DNA of 64,000 bases from Anaerovorax odorimutans (GTDB taxonomy: Bacteria; Bacillota; Clostridia; Peptostreptococcales; JAAYPU01), in the NCBI GenBank assembly GCA_016841185.1, contig JAENZQ010000008.1:1-64000 (forward strand), given 5' to 3'. The notes beneath the pieces are model-generated. The model was given only the letters and a program-made list of their open reading frames with translations. It was not told the origin of the DNA and made no database searches. The position numbers and the translations under genes are program-made. Positions 3,407-32,162 of this stretch are shown piece after piece (the stretch's first letter is position 1; every line of letters starts with the position of its first letter).

Positions 3407-6070
3407 CTATTTTAAACAATACCAATTATCACCGATATGCAGATCCACTTTAAGAGGAACTTTTAATTCTACTGCATTTTCCATTTTTTCCACTAACAAT
3501 TGTTTGACTTTTTCTATTTCATCTTTATGAACTTCGATGATAAGCTCATCATGAACCTGCAGGATCAATCTGGATTTGGTATTGTCCTTCAAGGCCCTGT
3601 AAACATCTCTCATGGCAATTTTTATAATATCTGCTGCACTGCCCTGAATAGGTGTATTCATTGCCAGCCTTTCTCCGAAAGACCTAATATTGAAATTATT
3701 AGAAGTGATTTCAGGAACATGGCGTTTTCGATTCATGATCGTCTTTACATAGCCATTTGATTTACAGGATTCAATCATTTTATCCATATAAGCTTTTACA
3801 GTTGAATATTTTTTGAAATACTCCTGAATGTATTGAGAAGCTTCTTTTCTGGATATATTTAAATTTTCTGATAAACCATAGTCGCTCATACCGTAGATGA
3901 CACCAAAATTAACTGCTTTGGCCCGCGACCTTTGAAGGTTGGTAACATCTTCAGGTGCGACATTGAAAACTTTTGATGCCGTCATGGTATGAATATCTTC
4001 GTCATTCATAAAGGCTTCCATTAGAGAAGGATCTTCAGATATATGTGCTAAAACACGAAGTTCGATTTGTGAATAATCTGCGCCCATTAAAACATAATTT
4101 TCTTCCGGTATAAACGCTTTTCGTATAAGCCTGCCAGCTTCCTGTTTTATAGGGATATTCTGTAAATTAGGTTCTGTACAGCTGATTCTTCCGGTTGTCG
4201 TAACTGTCTGGTTAAAATGAGCATGTACTCTGTTAGTTTCTTTGTTAATTAAAGGAATCAGTCCTTCAATATATGTACTTTTTAATTTTGCAAGAGTTCG
4301 GTATTCTATGATCAAAGGTATAATATCATGAGATTCTTTAAGTTTCTCTAAAACATCAATGCTGGTAGAATAACCGGTCTTTGTTTTTTTAATAGCCGGC
4401 AGTTTAAGTTTATCAAACAAAATAGGTCCCAACTGCTTTGTAGAGTTAATATTAAATTGTTCTCCTGCCAGTTCATAGATTTTTTGAGAAATTTCTTCTA
4501 TTTCTTTTGTTAATCTCTCTCCGATTCTGGTAAGTTCACCGTCATCGATACCAAAACCAACGTATTCCATCTTTGCAAGAGCTTCTACCAAAGGAAGCTC
4601 AATTGTACGGTAGAGATCAATTAAATTCTCTTTCTTCAATCGTTCTTTCAATATTTCAGTTAATGTTTTAGTGATTTTACACCATCTAAATGCATAATCT
4701 GAATATTTTTCATTCATATCTCCAAAAAACTCTATTTGACCGTTCTGGTCAAAAAACTCCTTTTCGCCGGGCAAGTCCGTATTCAGATATTCCAGCGCCA
4801 AAGATTTCAAATCATAATTGCTTCTTTCCGGTTGGATCAAATATTGAGCAATGGCTGTATCAAATTCAATTTTAAAATCCTGTATCCCTAAATGAAACAG
4901 TTCATAGATATCATTTTTTATGTCATGACCTGTTATTCTTAAATTCAGTTTGTTGAAAGTATTATTTAATAAATTTTGAAATTCACTGTTTCCTATAGGA
5001 ATATAATAATAATGGTAATCCGACAATAAGCCGATTCCTATTAGATCAGGCCTTTTAATATGACTTTCATCAGAAAATACTTTTATTGTTACTTCCTGTT
5101 TTTTTAGAAGTGATTTTTCCATTTTTTCTATGGCTTTTATATCATTCACCAATATAAAGTCCACATCATCTCGGGTTATTTCTAAGGTGGATTCTTTATG
5201 AACATTCTTCTTTAATTTTGGGATCAGGCTGTAAAATTCGAGACGGTTATAGAGATTTACAAGTTTATCGGTATCCGGTTCATTGAAAGTGTATTCATCA
5301 AAGCAGATATCAATGGGAACATGGGTATTAATTTCTGCCAAGCGGCGGCTCATAACTGCAGTTTGTGAGTGATCAATAATTTTTTGACGAATTCTTTCAC
5401 TTTTCACTTCATTCACGTTGTTAACTAAATTATTAACAGAGCCGAATGTTTTGATGAGCTGCAATCCCGTTTTTTCACCAATTCCCGGAATGCCTGGAAT
5501 GTTATCGGATGCATCCCCCATTAATCCCTTGAGATCAATAAATTGCTCCGGCGTTATGCCATATTTATCCATAAATATTTTTTTATCATATACTTCGAAA
5601 TCACTGATTCCTTTTTTTGTAATAATCACTTGTGAAGAGTCGGAGGCAAGCTGCAGGGCATCCTTGTCACCGGTTATAACAAAAGTCTGTAGTTTGGCTT
5701 CCTCATTTTTTTTGACAACAGTGCCGATCAGATCGTCTGCCTCAAAGCCATCTAATTCAATTATTGAGATATTCATTGCCTCCAAAAGCTCTTTTAAAAG
5801 CGGAAGCTGTTGGGCAAGTTCCAGCGGCATTTTTTTTCTTCCGGCTTTGTACTCTGTATACTCTTTATGTCTGAAAGTCGGTGCTTTTTTATCAAATGCA
5901 ACCACCAGATATTCGGGATCATATTCTTCAATAATCTTATTCAACATATTGTTAAAGCCATAAACTGCATTGGTATACAGCCCTTCTTTTGTCATCAAAG
6001 GAGGCAGCGCATAGTATGCTCTGTTTATAAGGCTGTTTCCATCAATGATCACCATTCGTTTATTTATCAT
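3407..6070 (-). CDS. polA: DNA polymerase I
   Basis: An 887-residue repair and Okazaki-fragment-processing polymerase. The N-terminal 5' nuclease (about 1-290) shows VIIDGNSLINRAYYALP, VVAFDKKAPTFR, EYKAGRKKMP and GFEADDLIGTV. The C-terminal polymerase has motif A GADYSQIELRVLAH, motif B RSRAKAVNFGVIYG and motif C LQVHDELIIEV. The middle 3'-5' exonuclease domain is degenerate: the FDTET motif reads VFSDES and the last metal-binding Asp region reads YAFRWCKIT, so proofreading is probably absent, as in Bacillus. The ATG at 6070 is chosen because AAAGGAG sits in front of it; an upstream TTG would add nine residues without a better site. Confidence 0.97.
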   Translation of the reverse strand: MINKRMVIIDGNSLINRAYYALPPLMTKEGLYTNAVYGFNNMLNKIIEEYDPEYLVVAFDKKAPTFRHKEYTEYKAGRKKMPLELAQQLPLLKELLEAMNISIIELDGFEADDLIGTVVKKNEEAKLQTFVITGDKDALQLASDSSQVIITKKGISDFEVYDKKIFMDKYGITPEQFIDLKGLMGDASDNIPGIPGIGEKTGLQLIKTFGSVNNLVNNVNEVKSERIRQKIIDHSQTAVMSRRLAEINTHVPIDICFDEYTFNEPDTDKLVNLYNRLEFYSLIPKLKKNVHKESTLEITRDDVDFILVNDIKAIEKMEKSLLKKQEVTIKVFSDESHIKRPDLIGIGLLSDYHYYYIPIGNSEFQNLLNNTFNKLNLRITGHDIKNDIYELFHLGIQDFKIEFDTAIAQYLIQPERSNYDLKSLALEYLNTDLPGEKEFFDQNGQIEFFGDMNEKYSDYAFRWCKITKTLTEILKERLKKENLIDLYRTIELPLVEALAKMEYVGFGIDDGELTRIGERLTKEIEEISQKIYELAGEQFNINSTKQLGPILFDKLKLPAIKKTKTGYSTSIDVLEKLKESHDIIPLIIEYRTLAKLKSTYIEGLIPLINKETNRVHAHFNQTVTTTGRISCTEPNLQNIPIKQEAGRLIRKAFIPEENYVLMGADYSQIELRVLAHISEDPSLMEAFMNDEDIHTMTASKVFNVAPEDVTNLQRSRAKAVNFGVIYGMSDYGLSENLNISRKEASQYIQEYFKKYSTVKAYMDKMIESCKSNGYVKTIMNRKRHVPEITSNNFNIRSFGERLAMNTPIQGSAADIIKIAMRDVYRALKDNTKSRLILQVHDELIIEVHKDEIEKVKQLLVEKMENAVELKVPLKVDLHIGDNWYCLK

Positions 6071-6230: not shown

Positions 6231-7286
6231 TTACTTATAGTTAATGTCTATTAAAATGACAGATGTTTTGAATTCATTTTTTATTTTTTCCAGTGCATTG
6301 TTTTTTTCCGGAATCTGAACTGTTTCGATTTGCTCTAATCTTTTTTCATTACTTTCATTTTCTTCTTCATTTTCTGTTAAACCCATATCATTTTCTATCT
6401 TTGCGGCCAAACGGTTTAAAGCCATGATTTCGCTGTTCAGGGCATCATACTCTTCGGAATAATCACGGATATCCACATGATATTCTGTAATATTCGAATA
6501 TTGTGTTATATAATCCAGACAGCCTGTGAAAAGTTCTGAAGGCATTGTAAGTTTTATTTCCCAGTCTGCAGATTCATTATCGGCAGATACATTCATAACA
6601 ATATCCGGATGGGATTCCATGAACGGTTCAATAAAAGCTTCCACAGTCTCAAGAGAATCACTGCTAACATGTATCGATCCTTCATATGATTTAGCCGTAT
6701 CTACAGAAGAAGGAGCGGCTAATAAAAACATATCGGTACTTCTTACGTCTGATTCTCCGAAATCATGCGTCGAATCTTCTATTGCGGATGTATCTTGATC
6801 TGCCGCCATTGTTAACGGCTCCTGAGCAGCATCATCTGCCTTGGGCTGTGGGCTTCCGGCAGTATTCATTTCTTTCTGGAGCTTTTCGTCTGAATCATTG
6901 GCTAATGTCCATTTTGAACCGATTGAAGAAGATTCTTCCTGTGCCGTGTCCTGACTGGTATCTTTCATAAACATATTCTGGAAGGCGGATACAAAAACAA
7001 TTAGTACGGCGGCAGCAACAACACCATAAGTTCGCCAGTCTGTTCTAATCAGTTTATTTTTCCTTTTTTCAGTCAGCAGTTTCTTATGAAGGCCTTCTTT
7101 AAAATCAACGGGTAATTTAACCTCAGGTATATCATTGCACAGCTTTATATTTTCAGTAATCAATTGGTATTCTTCCCTGCAGGCAGAACATTCTGAAAGG
7201 TGCTTCTCGAATTTTTTTCTTTCCGAATCTTCAAGAAGATTATCTATATATAATGACATTTTTTCATTAATATCTTGGCAATTCAT
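6231..7286 (-). CDS. Anti-sigma factor: zinc-finger N-terminus with a DUF4349-like extracytoplasmic domain
   Basis: A 351-residue membrane protein directly downstream of the ECF sigma gene and probably its inhibitor. Residues 1-45 form a zinc-binding anti-sigma domain with the HLSECSACREEY motif (HxxxCxxC). A single membrane segment (YGVVAAAVLIVFVSAF, about residues 87-103) is followed by a low-complexity Ser/Asp/Gln-rich linker. The outer region (about 195-350) resembles DUF4349, including a predicted coiled coil (EEYDALNSEIMALNRLAAKIE). The N-terminus should bind the sigma factor in the cytoplasm and the outer part may sense the envelope. The signal and any cleaving protease are unknown. 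Confidence 0.85.
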   Translation of the reverse strand: MNCQDINEKMSLYIDNLLEDSERKKFEKHLSECSACREEYQLITENIKLCNDIPEVKLPVDFKEGLHKKLLTEKRKNKLIRTDWRTYGVVAAAVLIVFVSAFQNMFMKDTSQDTAQEESSSIGSKWTLANDSDEKLQKEMNTAGSPQPKADDAAQEPLTMAADQDTSAIEDSTHDFGESDVRSTDMFLLAAPSSVDTAKSYEGSIHVSSDSLETVEAFIEPFMESHPDIVMNVSADNESADWEIKLTMPSELFTGCLDYITQYSNITEYHVDIRDYSEEYDALNSEIMALNRLAAKIENDMGLTENEEENESNEKRLEQIETVQIPEKNNALEKIKNEFKTSVILIDINYK

Positions 7287-23477: not shown

Positions 23478-23504
23478 AAAAAAACAGTTTAATAACTGTT
23501 TTTT
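23478..23504 (-). terminator. Intrinsic terminator of the Tad/DUF192 operon
   Basis: AAAAACAGTT pairs with AACTGTTTTT across a 3-base loop right after the DUF192 stop codon, followed by a T-rich run on the minus strand. It closes the long operon that starts at the c-di-GMP riboswitch. Confidence 0.8.
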
Positions 23505-23860
23505 CATTCATGTGAAATAATCTTTAATTGATCGTATAATGCGATCTTCTTTTTTTGAATGGATTTGACGGGCATTTCTATAACACATTGGGCATGACTG
23601 ACAATTTTGCTTATTTCCCAAGGCTGCATTGATTCTATCAAATAAAGGACCTCTTCTCTTTTGCCTAAAAAAACTGCATCAATTGGAAATTTCATAAAAA
23701 GCATATGAATGCCGTTACAGGGTTTTATACATAAAGCACTATCTTCATTCAGGCCTTTTTTTCCAATCAAGCCTGAAAGCCGTTCGTGAAAATTAGTTGT
23801 CATTTTGGCATTATTAAAGAGTATTTCGTTAGATTGATTAGTAATCATTACTTTTTTCAT
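23504..23860 (-). CDS. DUF192 family protein
   Basis: A 118-residue DUF192 protein. It shows ARMTTNF-like residues (NAKMTTNFHERLSGLIGKKGL), the conserved CIKPCNGIHMLFMKFPIDAVFL and the late HAQCVIEMP. It has no signal peptide, unlike many relatives. The family is of unknown function. It follows tadC by 13 bases and is the last gene before the terminator, so it is cotranscribed with the pilus genes. DUF192 genes are seen beside Tad loci in other Firmicutes. Confidence 0.88.
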   Translation of the reverse strand: MKKVMITNQSNEILFNNAKMTTNFHERLSGLIGKKGLNEDSALCIKPCNGIHMLFMKFPIDAVFLGKREEVLYLIESMQPWEISKIVSHAQCVIEMPVKSIQKKKIALYDQLKIISHE

Positions 23861-23873
23861 TTCAGGTTTCCTT

Positions 23874-24794
23874 CTATTCGGATAAAAGTTGTGTGAATTT
23901 TATAATAGACGGGCCCAGGATGATTACAAATATAGTTGGAAAAATAAAAAATATCAGAGGGAATAGAATTTTCACCGGTGCTTTCAAAGCTTTTTCTTGA
24001 GCTTTTTGCCGCCTTTTCTCCCGCATTTGTTTTGATTGGACCCTTAAAACATTTGCAATGCCAATACCAAGTTCATCTGCTTGTATCAGCGAACCGATGA
24101 ACAAGGACAAGTCTGAAACGTCACATCTTTTGCTCATATTCATTAATGCCTCTTTTCGGTTTTTCCCAACCCGTATTTCATGTAAAGTCCTGCTGAACTC
24201 ATCTGATATAACACCGTTCATCTTTTCTACAAGTTTATTGACTGCACTGTCGAAAGAAAGACCTGCTTCTACACTGACTGTTAATAAATCCAGAACATCA
24301 GGAAGAATCTTTTCTATCTCTTTTTTTCTTCTGCGGGCTGATTGTTTCAGATATAGTTCTGGAAAGTAAAATAGAAACAATGCTGACATCATTATAAAAA
24401 TAATAGCACCTCTGCTCAGCAGGATATCCCTGATTGAAAAAAGACCTATGCTTATACAGGGAAATAACAACCCAAATACATATTTAAACAAAAGCCATCT
24501 GTCTGCATATGGGGATATCGGCTTACCTGCGGATTGCAGGTATTGCTCAATTCTGCTTTTCATCCTTTTCGGCGTTATTTTAGTAATTAACCTTTCTGTT
24601 TTTTTAAAGAAGGGAAAAATAATCCTCTGTCTGAAAGGTATATCTAATTCTGAAAGTTCATTCTTTACATCCGATTCACGGATTTTATTTACTCTTGTGA
24701 GCATCCGGATCCTGTCCTTATATAGAAAACTCAGAAGCAGGTAACCTATACAAAATACAATTATAAATATAAACGAAGATAAAATATACACCAT
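23874..24794 (-). CDS. tadC: Tad pilus inner-membrane platform protein TadC (T2SSF family)
   Basis: A 306-residue GspF-domain membrane protein. Membrane segments lie at about residues 1-20, 105-150 and 280-300. The cytoplasmic GspF domain has LPDVLDLLTVSVEAGLSFDSAVNKL, RVGKNRKEALMNMSKRCDVSDLSLFIGSLIQADELG and QMREKRRQKAQEKALKAPVKILFPL. With TadB it forms the platform on which the TadA ATPase works. It lies 12 bases after tadB. Confidence 0.92.
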   Translation of the reverse strand: MVYILSSFIFIIVFCIGYLLLSFLYKDRIRMLTRVNKIRESDVKNELSELDIPFRQRIIFPFFKKTERLITKITPKRMKSRIEQYLQSAGKPISPYADRWLLFKYVFGLLFPCISIGLFSIRDILLSRGAIIFIMMSALFLFYFPELYLKQSARRRKKEIEKILPDVLDLLTVSVEAGLSFDSAVNKLVEKMNGVISDEFSRTLHEIRVGKNRKEALMNMSKRCDVSDLSLFIGSLIQADELGIGIANVLRVQSKQMREKRRQKAQEKALKAPVKILFPLIFFIFPTIFVIILGPSIIKFTQLLSE

Positions 24795-24806
24795 GTTGGG
24801 GTCCTC

Positions 24807-25784
24807 CTAAAAATCTATTTTTATAATTTTATTAATAATAAGGTATCCAAGAAACTCATTTAAAAAAGCCGTACCCAATAATACGATCCCTATCTTAGTT
24901 GTATATAAAGGCTTCATATATTGAGGATCGATCATAAAAATAGCTGCTGCGATAACAATAGGAAGAATGGAGACAATAAGCCCTGACAGTTTTCCCTGTG
25001 CTGTAAGGGTTTTTATTTCACCCTTTATTCTGATACGTTCACGGATGGTTTTTGAAATATTGTCTAATATTTCGGCAAGGTTTCCTCCGGTCTGTCTTTG
25101 TATATTGACAGCTGTAATCATAAGGCTCAGGTCATCGCTCTCCATCCTTTTCAACAAATTCTCAAATGCTGATTCAAGAGTTACGCCAAGCCTTATTTCA
25201 TTAACAAGTTTTGCAAACTCTTTTGAGATCGGTTCAGGCATTTCCCTGGAGGCTGTATCCACAGCTTGTAAGAAACTATGCCCTACTTTAAGAGAATTGG
25301 AAATCAATACGATGGTGTCCCCCAATTGGTCATTAAACACTTTTATTCTTTTGTTTTTCTTGATCTTTACAATGGACACTGGAATATAAAAGCCGATCAT
25401 TAATAAAATAAACCCTGCTATTATTGTTCCAAACACTTTAAATGCCGCTATGAAAAAAGAAAGTCCAACAATTATTTGAATAGCAGTAAATTCTTCGCCT
25501 TTCAAAGGAATGCCGGCTTTTATCAGCTCCTTTTGATTTTTCTCTTTAAGTTTCGTCATAAGATTTAATTTAGTAATGGCTTTTCCGAATAAAGACAGGA
25601 TTCCTGAAAACTTTAGATACTGTTTACGGCCTTCATTATCTGCCGGCTTTCCTACATTGTTTTTTTCTGTGAAAACATGCACTCTATTAATGAGTCGTGG
25701 TCGATTAAACAGGAGATTCAGTATAAAGTACAAATTCAGTAAACAACAGAAAAAGAATAAAACAATCAATAAGTGTTTCATCAT
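24807..25784 (-). CDS. tadB: Tad pilus inner-membrane platform protein TadB (T2SSF family)
   Basis: A 325-residue GspF-domain protein with an N-terminal membrane segment, a pair of segments at about 105-140 and C-terminal segments at about 265-320. Conserved residues include QLGDTIVLISNSLKVGHSFLQAVDTASREMPEPISKEFAKLVNEIRLG, LMITAVNIQRQTGGNLAEILDNIS and IRERIRIKGEIKTLTAQGKLSG. It pairs with TadC downstream and follows tadA by nine bases. Confidence 0.93.
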   Translation of the reverse strand: MMKHLLIVLFFFCCLLNLYFILNLLFNRPRLINRVHVFTEKNNVGKPADNEGRKQYLKFSGILSLFGKAITKLNLMTKLKEKNQKELIKAGIPLKGEEFTAIQIIVGLSFFIAAFKVFGTIIAGFILLMIGFYIPVSIVKIKKNKRIKVFNDQLGDTIVLISNSLKVGHSFLQAVDTASREMPEPISKEFAKLVNEIRLGVTLESAFENLLKRMESDDLSLMITAVNIQRQTGGNLAEILDNISKTIRERIRIKGEIKTLTAQGKLSGLIVSILPIVIAAAIFMIDPQYMKPLYTTKIGIVLLGTAFLNEFLGYLIINKIIKIDF

Positions 25785-25793
25785 GTCCCTCCA

Positions 25794-27122
25794 CTAAAAT
25801 ATTCCCGGCGGCATAGTAAGGCCTCTTGATGTCAGATTATCTAAAAATGAAGGTTTGATTCCGGTGAACTTAAATTCTCCCGAAACCTTTCCTTTATTAT
25901 CCAGTCCATGTTGATGAAACATGAAAATATCCTGCAGTATGATAACATCTCCTTCCATCCCCTGAACTTCAGTTATATGTGTGATCTTTCTGCTGCCATC
26001 TTTCAATCTTGTTTGCTGAATAATCAAATTAATAGCAGAAGCGATCTGTTCCCTTATCGCTTTAACAGGGAGATCCATACCTGCCATCAGAACCATTGTT
26101 TCAAGTCTGGACAACATATCTCGGGGTGAGTTTGCATGCCCGGTGGTTAATGAACCATCATGCCCTGTATTCATGGCCTGAAGCATATCCAGAGCTTCAC
26201 CGGACCTGACTTCTCCTACTATAATTCTATCAGGACGCATTCTAAGACTGTTTCGTACTAAATCCCTTATGGTGATTTCCCCTTTCCCTTCAATATTTGG
26301 AGGCCGGGTTTCCAGACTGACCACATGTTCCTGAGATAATTGAAGTTCTGCTGCATCTTCGATGGTTACAATCCGTTCATTATGAGGAATGAAAGAAGAT
26401 AATACATTCAAAGTTGTTGTTTTTCCGCTGCCGGTTCCGCCGGATACCAGAACATTCAGTTTCCCTTCTACACATATTTTTATAAATTCTGCCATTTGAT
26501 AAGTAAGGGTCCCAAAGCTTACAAGATTGTTTATATCAAAAGGATCATCTGAAAACTTTCTTATGGTCAAAGAGGGACCCTTTATAGAAAGAGGGGGAAC
26601 AATGGCATTGACTCTTGAACCATTGGGAAGTCTTGCATCTACCATAGGTGAACTTTCATCGATCCTTCTTCCGAGAGGAGCTACGATTTTTTCGATAACA
26701 TGATAAACATGTGCATTATCCTTGAATTTTTTTTCTGTTTTCACTAATTTTCCGTTTCTTTCCACATATATCTGAGAAGGGCCGTTTATCATAATTTCAG
26801 TAACTTCTTTGTCTCTTAAAAAAGGCGTAATAGGGCCAAACCCAATGATCTCATCTAAAATTTCCGAGATTATTTTTTCTTTTTCTTTGACTGTAAATTT
26901 AATTTTTTCGCTTTGGAACATTTCTTCAGAAAGATTCCGGATATTTTCCTTCAGTTCATCGTATTTTTCTTTTGCCTTCTTATAATCTACTGCAAGTTCT
27001 TGAATAATCTTATTCTGGATTTTATTTTTTATTATCTCATTTGAATTTTCCTGAACATCATTGTGCCGCAACTCAAGTTTATGTTCAGATCTGTCTTTTT
27101 CTAACCTATCCCTTAAGGACAT
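25794..27122 (-). CDS. tadA: Tad pilus assembly/secretion ATPase TadA (CpaF)
   Basis: A 442-residue type II/IV secretion ATPase that powers Flp pilus assembly at the inner face of the membrane. It has Walker A SGGTGSGKTTTLNVLSSF, the Asp box IVTIEDAAELQL, Walker B-region RIIVGEVRSGEALDMLQAM and the His box NTGHDGSLTTGHANS. The start at 27122 is chosen because AGGGTGATAAT precedes the ATG. The frame is open further upstream, but through a palindromic repeat (27157-27185). Confidence 0.95.
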   Translation of the reverse strand: MSLRDRLEKDRSEHKLELRHNDVQENSNEIIKNKIQNKIIQELAVDYKKAKEKYDELKENIRNLSEEMFQSEKIKFTVKEKEKIISEILDEIIGFGPITPFLRDKEVTEIMINGPSQIYVERNGKLVKTEKKFKDNAHVYHVIEKIVAPLGRRIDESSPMVDARLPNGSRVNAIVPPLSIKGPSLTIRKFSDDPFDINNLVSFGTLTYQMAEFIKICVEGKLNVLVSGGTGSGKTTTLNVLSSFIPHNERIVTIEDAAELQLSQEHVVSLETRPPNIEGKGEITIRDLVRNSLRMRPDRIIVGEVRSGEALDMLQAMNTGHDGSLTTGHANSPRDMLSRLETMVLMAGMDLPVKAIREQIASAINLIIQQTRLKDGSRKITHITEVQGMEGDVIILQDIFMFHQHGLDNKGKVSGEFKFTGIKPSFLDNLTSRGLTMPPGIF

Positions 27123-27156
27123 ATTATCACCCTGCCTTATAGTGTAAGTATGCTCC

Positions 27157-27185
27157 GTAGGGACAGCCCTTGCGGCTGTCCGAAC
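27157..27185. repeat. GC-rich palindromic intergenic element (cpaE-tadA gap)
   Basis: The palindrome GGACAGCCCTTGCGGCTGTCC lies inside the Tad operon between cpaE and tadA. Its core is the same as the element at 62291-62315. On RNA it would form a stable hairpin without a T run, so it is more likely a processing or stability element than a terminator. Confidence 0.65.
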
Positions 27186-27222
27186 CAATTGCAAGTTCTG
27201 TAAGATCTCTGATCTTTAATTC

Positions 27223-28371
27223 CTAACCGGTTAATTGCTTTGCCAGTTTTGTAATACATTTGGAGATTTTATTCCTGCCTGAAGATAATACAAAAGGCGT
27301 TCCTTTATTAATGGAGGTGACGACGGTTTTTATATCTTCAACAATAACCTGTCCAACAGGCCTATCAAAAATAGAATATATATCCTTAAGTTTTATTCCG
27401 AATTTTTCGTTGGCTTTATTGATGACCAGATTTACTTTTTCATCGGTATAGCCCAATGATTTCATGATTCCTAAGCCTACTTTTACATTTTTAATGGATA
27501 CAATATCCATTGTGGTAACGAATAGAATAGTATCGGAAACATCCAATGCTGTTAAAGTAACCTCATCAAAACTATTTGGATTATCAATAATAATATAATC
27601 ATAAGCCTGTTTTAATAAATCAATTATTTCTTTAATGTGCTCTTCAGTTATATATTCTGCAAGCTCAGGGCTTACGGGAGAAGATAATATGGAAATGCCT
27701 TGAAAGTCCTGCATGAACAATTTAAGATTATCCAGTGTATACTCATCGCTCTGATTGATAAAATCCACTATGGAAGTAACCGGTTCCTTATCAACCATTA
27801 AGAGTATGTCTCCGAATTGAAGGTCCAAGTCGATTACAGCGACCTTTTTATTTATCTCTTTATGCAATTTTAATGCAGTATTTATGGCAATGGTGGATTT
27901 GCCTACACCCCCCTTAGTGCTGAAAACACTGATTATTTTACATTTAGTATTTTTAGTACGTTCCAAATCAACCTGATTATACTTTTCCTTTTTAATAAAT
28001 TCCTTTTCATATACGGTTCGTATTGTATCAATCAGCGTTTCTTGGACAAAAGGCGTTTTGATATATTCCTTTGCACCGTGTACCATTGCTTTCTTTATCA
28101 AATGGACATCTTCCTTTTCGGAAGTCATGATTACAATTGTATGATCAGATTCGGAAGTTACTTTTTCAATAACTTCAAAACTATCCATTTCAATCATATT
28201 ATAATAAATCAATAAAATATCCGGCTTTAGCTGCAGCGAAAGTTCCAGCGCTCTTTTACCATTTTCAGCTTCACCAATGACTTTAATGGTTCGATCCTTT
28301 GATAGATAAGTTTTGATAAGCTCACGGGTATCTCTTCTGTTATCGGCGATCAGTATTTTTATTTTATTCAA
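27223..28371 (-). CDS. cpaE: Tad pilus localisation ATPase CpaE/TadZ with pseudo-receiver domain
   Basis: A 382-residue protein. Residues 1-120 form a response-regulator-like domain (IKILIADNRRDTRELI). The usual phospho-acceptor Asp is replaced by Tyr (ILLIYYNMIEMDS), so it is an atypical receiver. Residues about 140-382 form a ParA/MinD-type ATPase with the deviant Walker A FSTKGGVGKSTIAINTA, the VIDLDLQFGDILLM segment and YIIIDNPNSFDEVTL. CpaE/TadZ proteins place the Tad machinery in the cell. A CACCT-complement ribosome site precedes the ATG, and the gene follows cpaB by 16 bases. Confidence 0.92.
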   Translation of the reverse strand: MNKIKILIADNRRDTRELIKTYLSKDRTIKVIGEAENGKRALELSLQLKPDILLIYYNMIEMDSFEVIEKVTSESDHTIVIMTSEKEDVHLIKKAMVHGAKEYIKTPFVQETLIDTIRTVYEKEFIKKEKYNQVDLERTKNTKCKIISVFSTKGGVGKSTIAINTALKLHKEINKKVAVIDLDLQFGDILLMVDKEPVTSIVDFINQSDEYTLDNLKLFMQDFQGISILSSPVSPELAEYITEEHIKEIIDLLKQAYDYIIIDNPNSFDEVTLTALDVSDTILFVTTMDIVSIKNVKVGLGIMKSLGYTDEKVNLVINKANEKFGIKLKDIYSIFDRPVGQVIVEDIKTVVTSINKGTPFVLSSGRNKISKCITKLAKQLTG

Positions 28372-28387
28372 TGGAAATTCACCTCTA

Positions 28388-29143
28388 TTACTTATAAATT
28401 ACTACCTTTCCCTTTTCTGTCACCAAATCTTCTCTGATTACTCCGGGTGTATAATGAATAGAGTCATCCCCGATACCTCTTAATGCCAGTTTTATATTGC
28501 CCATTTCTTCTCCCAATACTAATTTCTCACCGTCAGAAGGCTTTACTGCAACTGTAACAGCGTATTCTTCCGGCACATCCTCCCTTTCATTTTTTTTCTT
28601 GAGCACTTCTTTACTTACTGCTATAACCTGAATATTTTGTAATAAAAGAATAGATGTTTTTGGATGGACGATTTTGCTGTCCTTCATATCGATTACTTTT
28701 TCTTCAACTGTTACATAAATATCTACAAAATCATTGGGCTTTATCAGGTCTGCAACGCCGCTGAATTCATCAATAGCAATGGAAATTGCACGTTTGCCTT
28801 CAGGTATCAAAAATGGAAGGTGTGTTTCACCATCCTGCAGTAATCTTTCATCCGGAATTGATTCACCTTTTATGATTTTTTCTTTAGCTATTTTTCCTGA
28901 AATATCTCCTATGTTTCGAATCCCCATATTCAAGAGATCACTTTCCGGGACCTTTATCTCGGTAATCATGTTTTCTGAAATTGTCTCCCCGGGCAGTATA
29001 TCTCTTGAGGCTACCGGAATTGTTGCGGTTTCTTTTACAGCACTCCCTTGCTGGATATTATTTAAATAATCATAAGCTAAATATGCCGTAATAAAGGAAA
29101 TGATCATTGCAAAAATTAGTATTTTCTTATTCAGAGTTTTCAT
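28388..29143 (-). CDS. cpaB: Flp pilus assembly protein CpaB (SAF domain)
   Basis: A 251-residue protein with one N-terminal membrane anchor (ILIFAMIISFITAYLAYDYL) and an extracytoplasmic SAF domain (IPVASRDILPGETISENMI... GKIAKEKIIKGESI). It also has the CpaB/RcpC signature KRAISIAIDEFSGVADLIKPNDFVDIY. The ATG at 29143 follows GTGGAGGTGCAT. In Gram-negatives CpaB is periplasmic and associates with the secretin; in Firmicutes, which lack the secretin, its role at the cell wall is unclear. Confidence 0.9.
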   Translation of the reverse strand: MKTLNKKILIFAMIISFITAYLAYDYLNNIQQGSAVKETATIPVASRDILPGETISENMITEIKVPESDLLNMGIRNIGDISGKIAKEKIIKGESIPDERLLQDGETHLPFLIPEGKRAISIAIDEFSGVADLIKPNDFVDIYVTVEEKVIDMKDSKIVHPKTSILLLQNIQVIAVSKEVLKKKNEREDVPEEYAVTVAVKPSDGEKLVLGEEMGNIKLALRGIGDDSIHYTPGVIREDLVTEKGKVVIYK

Positions 29144-29189
29144 ATGCACCTCCACATTATCTCATTAAACAACACTGAGGGAACTCGCT

Positions 29190-30092
29190 TCATTGAATAA
29201 GTTTAAGCCCATATAATCCGTAATTATTCTGGCTTTCTGAAATATCCCCATTGGTCACAAATTCTATGAACCTTCCCGTGATTTCTGCTTTCCCTGCTTT
29301 TTTATCTGCACCTTCCAGGAAGAAGAGCGCAAATCCAACGATCTCCACAGTAGAACGCCCATGATTTTGTAATGAATCTACCACAGGAATTGTCCATAGT
29401 CTTTTTGAATCCGGAGAATAATTGTCAAATGTGCTGCAATCTCCTGAAATAATACTGTATACGCCGCTGATTGTAGGCCCTGCCATGTTTCCCGGTTCTG
29501 TATCGATTATATCTCCTACTTTAAGACATGCTTCATATCCGTTTATAATGTTTTTTTTGTAGGCATTGGCTCCTGTACCGCCTAAAGCAATGGCACCATA
29601 ATTTCCATGATAGCCGTCACCACTATTTTCTTTTAGAATAACCTGTTGTCCGTAAGTAAATTGCTGTTGTTCAACAGCAAAAGGACGAATGCCTTCATAA
29701 ACCTCTGTAACAGACCCAAGAAGTGCTTTTGAAGCAACATCAATTTCGGTATCCGTATAACCCAATACTCTGGCAAATATATAATCCATGCGGTTTTTCA
29801 GCGCTACTTGAATACCATGATTACTATCTGTAACGGTAATGGATGCAATTTCTCTTGGAAATCCGTTTTTTTCAACATACTCCAAAGCGGTTTCTTTTGC
29901 TTTAACCGGTGAAGAAGGCAATTCTAAAGCACCGGCCAAAGCAGCAGCATCTGCTGTATTTTTCAACTTATTTTCTTCTATAAACGCAAGCCCTATATCC
30001 GTTACCAAAGTAACAAAACCCATAAGAACAGTCATTCCGATAACTACGATTATTAACGCAGACCCCTTCTGTTCGTTAAGCAGTTTTTTCAT
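29190..30092 (-). CDS. TadG-like pilus assembly protein (Tad_N domain)
   Basis: A 300-residue exported protein. The N-terminus KKLLNEQKGSALIIVVIGMTVLMGFVTLVTDIGLAFIEENKLKNTADAAALAGAL is typical of the Tad-associated (TadE/G-like) domain: a prepilin-like segment followed by an ADAAALAG stretch. The rest (about 130-300) is an unassigned extracellular domain; no von Willebrand A domain is visible. The start at 30092 follows GAAGGTGAAAAC; a longer frame to 30146 would overlap tadE. It lies 46 bases upstream of cpaB. Confidence 0.85.
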   Translation of the reverse strand: MKKLLNEQKGSALIIVVIGMTVLMGFVTLVTDIGLAFIEENKLKNTADAAALAGALELPSSPVKAKETALEYVEKNGFPREIASITVTDSNHGIQVALKNRMDYIFARVLGYTDTEIDVASKALLGSVTEVYEGIRPFAVEQQQFTYGQQVILKENSGDGYHGNYGAIALGGTGANAYKKNIINGYEACLKVGDIIDTEPGNMAGPTISGVYSIISGDCSTFDNYSPDSKRLWTIPVVDSLQNHGRSTVEIVGFALFFLEGADKKAGKAEITGRFIEFVTNGDISESQNNYGLYGLKLIQ

Positions 30093-30108
30093 GTTTTCAC
30101 CTTCTTTA

Positions 30109-30510
30109 TTATTCCACACGCATACTGGTACGGCACTCAACAACATAAGGATCAGAAATGATATGACCGATTAAAGGTGTTATGATTTCTACTTCACAGG
30201 AAACTGATACCTTCGCTTCAGTTCCTCTTTTCCTTTCTGATTGCTGAGGATAGACAGTAATTTGCAGTGTTGAAGAATCAAGAGAAACTGCAGTTTGCCG
30301 GACCGTATGAATAATTTCCGTATCCGATTTGCCGACTGCAGCTTGTCTTGCTCCTTCTCTTGATGCTTGATTTGCAATAAGGTAAGCATTCATGACCCTG
30401 CCAAAATCAATCATTCCCATGATAAGTAAAAGAAGCAAGGGAAGTACAAGTGCTAATTCCACAACTGCCTGGCCTTTATTGTTTCTGATCAATTTCTTAA
30501 CCAACTGCAT
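30109..30510 (-). CDS. tadE: TadE-like minor pilin
   Basis: A 133-residue TadE family pseudopilin. After a short basic leader comes NNKGQAVVELALVLPLLLLLIMGMIDFGRVMNAYLIANQASREGARQAA, which holds the prepilin-type cleavage site (Gly then QAVVEL) and the TadE signature. The C-terminal domain has three cysteines. It precedes the tadG-like gene by 16 bases. Confidence 0.92.
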   Translation of the reverse strand: MQLVKKLIRNNKGQAVVELALVLPLLLLLIMGMIDFGRVMNAYLIANQASREGARQAAVGKSDTEIIHTVRQTAVSLDSSTLQITVYPQQSERKRGTEAKVSVSCEVEIITPLIGHIISDPYVVECRTSMRVE

Positions 30511-30594
30511 TGTACTTCCTCCTTTGCTTTATGATATTTTGCCTATTTTTTTAACAATATTTGCGTTGTTGACTGTACATCTGAAAATTACGTA

Positions 30595-30768
30595 TTACAG
30601 AGCATTGGTAATAGTAGTAAATACACCTGAAATTTCATCTTTCAGTAAGGTAAGAGCACCTATAAGTAAAATAGCTACACCTGCAATGATCAGAGCATAT
30701 TCCACCATGCCCTGCCCTTTCTGGTTGCAAATAAACGATTTGGTTCGAAAAATCAAATTTCTTAACAT
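30595..30768 (-). CDS. flp: Flp/Fap major pilin
   Basis: A 57-residue Flp pilin. The leader MLRNLIFRTKSFICNQKG is followed by QGMVEYALIIAGVAILLIGALTLL. The Glu and Tyr at +5 and +6 of the mature chain are the defining Flp motif. The start at 30768 has a strong AAAGGAGGAATT site; the frame is open to 30840 but without a site. A Flp prepilin peptidase (TadV/CpaA) gene is not in the window. Confidence 0.93.
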   Translation of the reverse strand: MLRNLIFRTKSFICNQKGQGMVEYALIIAGVAILLIGALTLLKDEISGVFTTITNAL

Positions 30769-30852
30769 TTGAATTCCTCCTTTATAATTGATAGTATCTG
30801 CTAATGATGGCTGAATAAAAAACACCGGGAAATAAAACAAGAAAGCTCAGAT

Positions 30853-31407
30853 TTAATTCAACTCAGTATTCACCTCCTGATTTTTTAATGTAATAACACC
30901 AGTTTCTGAATCATATTGTACATCCAACCCAAATTCCTCGGATACAAATCTCAATGGCACATAGGTCCTGCTGCAGAATATTTTTGCAGGAACATCTATT
31001 TTTTTTTCTTTTTGATTTACGGTTACTGTTTTATTTTCAATAAATAAAATAATTTGTATTGATTCCTTTTGGATAGAAACTTTTTTCTCCTGTGGATACC
31101 ACACGACATTTGCCCCCAAACTTTCGGTAACAGCTCTAACAGGAATAAGTGTCCGGTTCTCATAAATAATAGGAGGCGTATCGAATTTAAAACTCAACGT
31201 AGGAGAAACTATTTTTTCAACTGATATGGCAGTAACATCATCATATTCTTCTTCTATTTCGGCTTCTAAATTTTTCAAAATCTCCAATTCTCTTTCAGAA
31301 TAGTCCATGACCGGCTCATTCGCCCGGCTGTAGAGATCAACTGAATTAAAGGGTATAAAAGTAAAAACGAGTAAAAACAGAATCATAATAAAAAATTTTT
31401 TTTTCAT
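30853..31407 (-). CDS. Exported stalk-domain protein (copper amine oxidase N-terminal-like)
   Basis: A 184-residue protein with a signal peptide (KKKFFIMILFLLVFTFIPF) and a C-terminal copper-amine-oxidase N-like stalk domain (about 75-175). That domain shows NRTLIPVRAVTESLGANVVW and SRTYVPLRFVSEEFGLDVQYDSETGVITL. In Clostridia such domains occur on cell-surface proteins and are thought to bind the wall or self-associate; no amine oxidase activity is implied. It is the first gene after the c-di-GMP riboswitch and the terminator, 84 bases before flp, and may help display the pilus. Confidence 0.88.
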   Translation of the reverse strand: MKKKFFIMILFLLVFTFIPFNSVDLYSRANEPVMDYSERELEILKNLEAEIEEEYDDVTAISVEKIVSPTLSFKFDTPPIIYENRTLIPVRAVTESLGANVVWYPQEKKVSIQKESIQIILFIENKTVTVNQKEKKIDVPAKIFCSRTYVPLRFVSEEFGLDVQYDSETGVITLKNQEVNTELN

Positions 31408-31429
31408 GTGATCACCTCTTTAAAATAAA

Positions 31430-31461
31430 AATAGCTTCAACCGATAATGGTTAAAGCTATT
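31430..31461 (-). terminator. Conditional leader terminator downstream of the c-di-GMP riboswitch
   Basis: AATAGCTTTAACC pairs with GGTTGAAGCTATT around a 6-base loop, followed on the minus strand by TTTATTTT. It ends only about 12 bases before the GAGGTG ribosome site of the stalk-protein gene and about 90 bases after the riboswitch. Its position between aptamer and first gene suggests that readthrough is controlled. Confidence 0.75.
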
Positions 31462-31546
31462 CCATACGCAAATAAATATATTTAATAATCACAATTTTAA
31501 AACAAAAATTATGATATTTCATATATTTTTTTACAAATAAAATAAA

Positions 31547-31634
31547 AACTTCGGCGACCCAGCCACCTTAGTCTATTGACCTTAGGCCTGTGATTTTGCG
31601 TCCTTACCTTTCGATAAGTTTGCCAGTATCGGTT
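31547..31634 (-). promoter_or_regulatory. Cyclic di-GMP-I riboswitch (GEMM-I)
   Basis: On the minus strand the leader carries the GEMM-I hallmarks in order. First GGCAAAC, then a P2 hairpin CTTATC-GAAA-GGTAAG with a GNRA tetraloop, then GGACGCAAA, the tetraloop-receptor region GGCCTAAGG, and finally GGTGGCTGGGTCGCCGA. This follows the V. cholerae Vc2 aptamer element for element. The flanking AAACTT/AAGTTT can close P1. It lies between a sigma-A promoter and a terminator hairpin, upstream of the stalk-protein and Flp/Tad genes, so it should couple pilus transcription to c-di-GMP. Whether it is an on- or off-switch cannot be decided by eye. Confidence 0.9.
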
Positions 31635-31669
31635 TTTCATATTATATTCATATTTTATTTTTCGACTTT

Positions 31670-31698
31670 ATTTTACTTTATTTGTCGTATCTTGTCAA
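31670..31698 (-). promoter_or_regulatory. Sigma-A promoter of the Tad pilus operon
   Basis: TTGACA (31693-31698), 17 bases, TAAAAT (31670-31675) on the minus strand, about 30 bases upstream of the riboswitch and just after the RNase P RNA gene. A second TATAAT lies at about 31641-31646 without a good -35 box. Confidence 0.7.
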
Positions 31699-31728
31699 TA
31701 AAACTCAAAAATTTGTTTAAATTTTTGC

Positions 31729-32162
31729 AAAAAAAAAATGAGCAAGTCTGTAAGCCGAGTTCTGTATTAGACAGCCATCTATCTAGGCCTGCAGTTGCCA
31801 GCAGGCTCAAGCGACCTACCAACCGGGCGGCAGCGGGCTACTGCCTTTCATGCCCTGATTTGGTCTTGCTCCGGGTGGGGTTTACATAGCCAGCCAGTCA
31901 CCAGGCTGCTGGTAAGCTCTTACCTTACCATTTCACCCTTACCCGGCACTCAACATAAATATTATCGTACATTTTAAAGATATTTCTTAGTTGATTTTAT
32001 TACCAAAATGTTAATAATACTCAGGTTGATTGCCGGGCGGTATCTTTCTGTTGCACTTTCCTTAGAGTTGCCTCCACTGGGAGTTACCCAGCACCTTGCC
32101 CTACGGAGCTCGGACTTTCCTCGAATATCAAATGATACTCGCAGCTGTCTGACTTACTCATT
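31729..32162 (-). ncRNA. rnpB: RNase P RNA (bacterial type A)
   Basis: Catalytic RNA that matures tRNA 5' ends. The P1 helix is formed by AATGAGTAAGTC (32151-32162) and GACTTGCTCATT (31737-31748), and a run of eight T follows (31729-31736), so P1 doubles as the terminator. Conserved segments include GAGGAAAGTCCGAGCTC, GTGCAACAGAAAG, GGGTAAGGGTGAAA, GGTAAGAGC and the 3' ACAGAACTCGGCTTAC. One helix (GCCCGGCA at 32031 / TGCCGGG at 31942) is extended by about 80 AT-rich bases compared with the short form usual in this group. The gene is about 426 nt, excluding the T run. Confidence 0.96.

Follow-up and report, generated by a model that had tools for sequence, protein, structure and literature searches.

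Our analysis points to a class I c-di-GMP riboswitch that most likely acts as a transcriptional OFF switch, terminating transcription prematurely before a Tad (type IVc) pilus operon of Anaerovorax odorimutans. We give this reading a probability of roughly 0.68, and that the Tad operon is under some form of c-di-GMP riboswitch control is very likely. The locus lies in the 64,000 nucleotides of contig JAENZQ010000008.1 analyzed here (positions 1 to 64,000, in the following the window), and all window features described below are on its minus strand. A riboswitch with a terminator ahead of the Tad operon had already been proposed in a first-pass annotation of this DNA; this part stands, based on the Rfam match, the synteny in a relative and the recurrence at other Tad loci, while the direction of control, which had not been given, is proposed here.

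The order on the minus strand is rnpB, promoter, c-di-GMP-I aptamer, terminator, ribosome binding site, stalk gene and Tad genes, and all leader parts named in the first-pass annotation were found at or near the positions it had given. The sigma-70 type promoter TTGACA-17-TAAAAT spans 31698–31670 (TTGACA at 31698–31693, a spacer of 17 nt and TAAAAT ending at 31670) and agrees with the consensus at 11 of 12 positions. Immediately upstream of the leader, and absent from that annotation, we found rnpB, encoding the class A RNase P RNA (31735–32160; RF00010, 297 bits), which is a neighbour outside the switch. The intrinsic terminator (31463–31428; −17.4 kcal/mol) has a 15 bp stem, a 6-nt loop and a T-rich tail, directly followed by the ribosome binding site AAGAGGTGAT (31411–31420, read from the sequence) and the ATG at 31407. 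Promoter and terminator-like hairpin were both obtained from consensus scans; since such scans also match shuffled sequence, weight was put on position and conservation. The leader fold as a whole was more stable than 200/200 shuffles (z −5.7). Further RNA elements detected with Rfam in the window were a T-box leader (49056–48880), a 6S RNA (16395–16215) and a tRNA (1058–977).

The claimed GEMM-I aptamer passed the covariance-model check that had been suggested along with it. Using cmscan, positions 31634–31550 matched c-di-GMP-I (GEMM-I, RF01051) over the full length (model 1–87 of 87) with 75.1 bits, the gathering threshold being 35; the E-value was 6.6e-13 when the whole window was scanned and 8.5e-15 when the genome was searched. 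In the RF01051 alignment, the GAAA tetraloop (CGAAAG) and its receptor CCUAAG/CUAAGG are intact, and the ligand-contact segments read GGCAAA, with G before C, and GCCGAA. The positions which we take to be equivalent to 20 and 92, following the Vc2 numbering, carry G and C, respectively. An A at position 20 confers recognition of cGAMP, and the A20G change switches specificity (PMC6456294). This A, the mark of the cGAMP-sensing GEMM-Ib subclass, is not found in the window aptamer; as it carries G instead, c-di-GMP rather than cGAMP is the expected ligand.

The proposed gene order, from a stalk protein through flp-tadE-tadG-cpaB-cpaE-tadA-tadB-tadC to a DUF192 gene, is borne out by Pfam. As claimed, the first product is a stalk-domain protein (30853–31407; copper amine oxidase N-terminal-like, Cu_amine_oxidN1, PF07833, E 3e-35), and a similar protein comes first in the operon of the relative G001. 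It is followed by flp for the Tad major pilin (30595–30771; Flp_Fap, PF04964, E 3.6e-11), which is the sole Flp match in the genome, tadE (30109–30510; PF07811, E 2.8e-18), a tadG-like gene with a Tad domain (29190–30092; PF13400, E 1.2e-11), cpaB/rcpC (28388–29143; PF16976, E 2e-25, and NCBIfam TIGR03177 over cut-off) and cpaE/tadZ (27223–28371), which combines a receiver domain (REC, PF00072) with a ParA/MinD-like ATPase (AAA_31, PF13614). The tadA/cpaF ATPase gene (25794–27122; T2SSE, PF00437, E 3.5e-67) precedes the genes of the two T2SSF platform proteins, tadB (24807–25784; PF00482, E 2.5e-19) and tadC (23874–24794; PF00482, E 2.9e-18). The last gene of the cluster encodes the DUF192 protein (23504–23860; PF02643, E 1.1e-13), and similar proteins follow tadC in G001 and in the more distant G015. 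With Flp, TadE/TadG, CpaB, CpaE/TadZ, TadA and two T2SSF proteins, all over the Pfam cut-offs, the gene set of a Tad (type IVc) locus is present; the NCBIfam TadA-family match for the window operon lies below its cut-off. No prepilin peptidase is encoded in the Tad operon (window 23504–31407), and the only PF01478 (Peptidase_A24) match in the genome is located on another contig (G000:C57:111558–111872); its product may serve Flp. A second TadA-like ATPase gene with 46% identity is found at G000:C21:53735–54895, on a contig carrying no c-di-GMP-I match. Besides the leader terminator, the coding strand of the operon contains one 8-bp hairpin only, at shuffle level, and promoter-like sites within the operon occur at chance level. 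All Tad genes probably depend on the leader promoter, with internal promoters as a possible addition.

The same arrangement is kept in G001, the nearest operon-bearing relative, which belongs to the same family and has a TadA that is 84% identical. Its locus (L092) retains the order rnpB, promoter, aptamer, terminator, stalk gene, Flp-type pilins, tad genes and DUF192, with rnpB at 4569–4915, the promoter TTGACA-17-TACAAT and an RF01051 match at 5034–5119 (71.6 bits). In the pairwise alignment with the window, the aptamer and the segment CGTATGGAATAGCTTTAA are conserved, separated by a diverged A+T-rich linker. The terminator hairpin is kept with changed stem pairs, and its loop sequence TTATCGGTT is common to both leaders. 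At the equivalent of C92, the G001 aptamer has a U (TCATCGAAG, L092 about 5108–5119, versus TCGCCGAAG in the window), and it may bind another ligand preferentially, or c-di-GMP with another affinity, than the window aptamer does. In G015, a member of another family (TadA 62%; L093), an RF01051 match lies 32 nt upstream of a terminator, directly before flp.

To survey Tad loci, we used a covariance model based on ten aptamers, onto which the Rfam structure was mapped, RNAalifold on the first alignment having returned the P2 region only. A census by regular expression was abandoned in favour of this model owing to many false matches at two mismatches. Among 80 named contigs with TadA and the relatives' loci, GEMM-I aptamers precede the Tad genes on the strand of these genes in Fredinandcohnia onubensis (L019) and Neobacillus muris (L028), and also in three MAGs of unclassified Bacillota or Clostridiales (L048, twice, L049 and L059). 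Further cases occur within the same order, and of 20 loci from the same class, L128 and L131 have aptamers in tandem and L129 has a single one. Aptamers near the Tad genes of L098, L114 and L120 were dropped as they lie on the opposite strand. L129 was also dropped as a clear case: its aptamer (6314–6403) is followed about 0.5 kb on by a tyrosine-recombinase-like frame (about 6940 onward), and the Tad genes lie beyond this frame, possibly reflecting an element integrated between switch and operon.

Of 60 Tad loci sampled across the matches in the phylum, 14 loci from 11 families (as labelled by the search tool) carried one to three GEMM-I aptamers upstream; several loci are cut by contig ends, which makes these frequencies lower bounds. 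All upstream aptamers of these 14 loci (20/20) are on the TadA strand. The 60 sampled genomes contain 365 RF01051 matches in sum, and from the genome-wide density and about 10 kb scanned per locus, 0.63 loci would be expected on the Tad strand by chance. The probability of at least 14 loci is then about 1e-14, a value to be read with the non-independence of genomes within one family in mind. Rescanning with Rfam confirmed the aptamers in nine out of nine Tad loci, with some extra copies fitting RF03167 better, the c-di-GMP-I-GGC variant, of which Weinberg 2017 is a likely source. Rfam scans of 32 loci gave no c-di-GMP-II aptamer above the gathering threshold. Judged by sequence motifs, the gene right after the aptamer is usually flp or a prepilin peptidase gene. 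L152 (8756–7474) and L155 (3382–4807) have three aptamers each, most with their own terminator, which stand one after another ahead of flp, prepilin peptidase and other genes; for several of them RF03167 is the best fit. The GEMM-I–Tad link is thus common among Bacillota-type Tad loci and not peculiar to this genome.

How aptamer and terminator might communicate was assessed by their pairing, with strands named after PMC9262584: P and A form the aptamer P1, and the two arms of the terminator are called T and H. In the OFF switch Cd1 of Clostridioides difficile, the T+H terminator coexists with the bound aptamer and the antiterminator is made with A (PMC9262584). The window leader has the separate terminator of this type, starting 87 nt past the aptamer without overlap, so both can coexist. 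A terminator built on the aptamer 3' strand, as in the ON switch of pilM, was not found in the leader, the stem (31463–31428) lying entirely on the 3' side of the aptamer.

Most of 34 Tad-linked leaders have an intrinsic terminator downstream of the aptamer, and 32 leaders, five with terminators placed by hand, formed the pairing set. Pooling aptamer core and downstream bases, the cognate duplex of A side and T side (terminator 5' arm and loop) reached −12.7 kcal/mol versus −9.9 kcal/mol for non-cognate combinations (0/20000 permutations). The test was repeated separately for these parts with one leader per family group, and the last 14 bases of the aptamer alone gave 10/20000 permutations. 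Typical cases are L059, pairing GUUGCC with GGCAAC, and L158, pairing GGGUUGCC with the terminator sequence GGCAACC. Cognate A–T pairing is the Cd1 pattern, and therefore Tad leaders as a class look like OFF switches. Pairing of P with H (5' flank with 3' arm) showed no enrichment across all leaders (1663/20000). In the window itself, A and T form a weak duplex (−5.1 kcal/mol), ranking 25th among the 32 leaders.

The candidate antiterminator of the window uses the 5' side of the aptamer. Here, the P strand AACCGAUACUGG (31623–31634) can pair with CCAUUAUCGGUU (31439–31450) in the terminator loop and 3' arm, forming up to 11 pairs with one mismatch (duplex −11.6 kcal/mol). Taken for this leader alone, the significance is modest, with 62/5000 shuffled partners (0.012) and 6/2000 shuffled whole leaders (0.003) doing as well. 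In G001, UAUCGGUU and an 8-bp pairing are kept, and this core (AACCGAUA/UAUCGGUU) is weaker (233/5000, 0.05, and 342/2000, 0.17). The direction suggested for the window would rest on this 5'-flank pairing. On the other side of the aptamer, the A strand GUUUUU (31544–31549, read from the sequence) can pair with AAAAAC (31637–31632) as an outer P1 helix, and the leader fold with P1 enforced has −60.8 kcal/mol.

Stepwise folding gave a P–H probability of about 1.0 at transcript lengths of 222 to 229 (bases up to about 31435), and in soft-constraint folding the pairing is worth up to 7.1 kcal/mol when the segment has just emerged. The terminator displaces P–H only once the lower part of its 3' arm has also emerged. 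About ten or more of the newest RNA bases are hidden by a polymerase standing on the U-tract, so the RNA exposed at the decision point would end about where P–H dominates. At full-length equilibrium the terminator is the favoured structure of the window leader, and in G001 it and P–H are roughly equal; switching in the window would therefore have to be kinetic.

We infer ligand binding, the co-transcriptional order of events and the direction as follows. At low c-di-GMP, the aptamer 5' strand would be free as the terminator region emerges and would pair with the terminator loop and 3' arm; the terminator would not form in time and the polymerase would continue through the stalk gene and on into the Tad genes. 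With c-di-GMP high and the aptamer occupied, the 5' strand would stay in P1, the terminator would form and the operon would be off before its first gene. This sign is predicted because P–H needs bases which the ligand-bound P1 would hold. Nearly all class I switches of C. difficile repress at high c-di-GMP (PMC3649979).

The same parts could also work with the opposite sign, the terminator being the default and the bound aptamer somehow preventing it, which would turn the Tad operon ON. This is fairly unlikely in our view. As a rule, c-di-GMP promotes pili and attachment, which runs against an OFF switch, and the free RNA favours the terminator at equilibrium. In Bc1 of Bacillus thuringiensis, separate terminators unfold upon c-di-GMP binding (PMC11218506), so a separate terminator is no proof of an OFF switch; moreover, pilM (PMC9262584) and the class II type IV pilus switch of C. 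difficile are both ON. The window terminator, however, does not involve the aptamer 3' strand, unlike that of pilM, and no strong alternative pairing was found other than those made with aptamer strands which the bound ligand would tie up.

A different possibility is that c-di-GMP binding acts mainly on translation of the stalk gene or on RNA stability, the hairpin blocking ribosomes or marking the RNA for processing and other promoters driving the pilus genes. The ribosome site just 3' of the hairpin would fit, as would the promoter-like sites within the operon, which occur at chance level; but a hairpin with a T-tract is what a standard intrinsic terminator looks like, and one is present within 100 nt in most of the other GEMM-I leaders at Tad loci, and we consider this explanation improbable. 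That the aptamer is a degenerate or non-functional remnant beside the operon is hardly credible: it scores 75 bits against 89 for the best genomic copies and the G001 copy has the U at the C92 position, but the match is full-length with all conserved segments, the aptamer is among the best-conserved stretches of the leader next to a diverged linker, and the recurrence at Tad loci far exceeds chance.

Among known systems, Cd1 (Cdi1_3) of the C. difficile flgB operon shares the class I aptamer, the separate, coexisting terminator and the OFF layout (PMC9262584, PMC3649979), but it controls flagella rather than a pilus, and its antiterminator uses the aptamer 3' strand, whereas the window candidate joins the 5' strand to the loop and 3' arm of the terminator. 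The type IV pilus precedent from C. difficile cited in the first-pass annotation, Cdi-2-4 before pilA1, is indeed a c-di-GMP riboswitch with a terminator ahead of a pilus operon; it is, however, a class II ON switch of a type IVa rather than a Tad pilus (PMC6366702), the reverse of the sign predicted here. The GEMM-Ib switch of pilM in Geobacter metallireducens likewise places a GEMM-I fold before a pilus gene and acts by transcription termination (PMC9262584), but the gene is of type IVa, A is found at position 20 and the terminator shares the aptamer 3' strand; the Geobacter GEMM-Ib pilus switches sense cGAMP and are ON (PMC6456294, PMC9262584). Bc1 and Bc3-5 of B. thuringiensis, also in the Bacillota, combine class I aptamers, some in tandem, with terminators (PMC11218506, PMC4759541), but have other targets (mcpE, chemotaxis, for Bc1) and no Tad operon. 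An account of monoderm Tad/Flp (type IVc) systems describes Flp, two minor pilins, TadA, two platform proteins and TadZ as found here and, in the portion considered, does not mention riboswitch control of Tad pili (PMC6916266). A full-text search of the open literature gave no article in which a Tad pilus is controlled by a riboswitch. Provisionally, the GEMM-I–Tad regulon, its breadth and the predicted repression by c-di-GMP appear to be new; the aptamer and the pilus are of known kinds. The fuller proposal of a widespread GEMM-I regulon that places the Tad pili of Bacillota under repression by c-di-GMP, with a 5'-strand antiterminator platform here that differs from Cd1 and pilM, we put forward tentatively, as somewhat short of an even chance.

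Tad pili are important attachment organelles, and little is known of how Gram-positive and related groups control them. With a riboswitch before roughly a fifth of the sampled loci, c-di-GMP would regulate these pili directly and without a protein in between. Should the OFF direction hold, c-di-GMP would shut off the Tad pilus, contrary to the rule that high c-di-GMP favours attachment; Tad pili might then belong to an early or motile phase, or give way to other adhesins.

Genome-wide searches revealed 13 GGDEF domains and 11 c-di-GMP-I aptamers in this organism, several of the latter preceding chemotaxis-receptor-like proteins and a surface protein, as judged from sequence. Two tandem pairs (four copies) lie before one predicted surface protein (G000:C14:50224–50859; L108), and three aptamers, two of them divergent, precede chemotaxis-receptor-like genes (G000:C20:49861–52780; L109).
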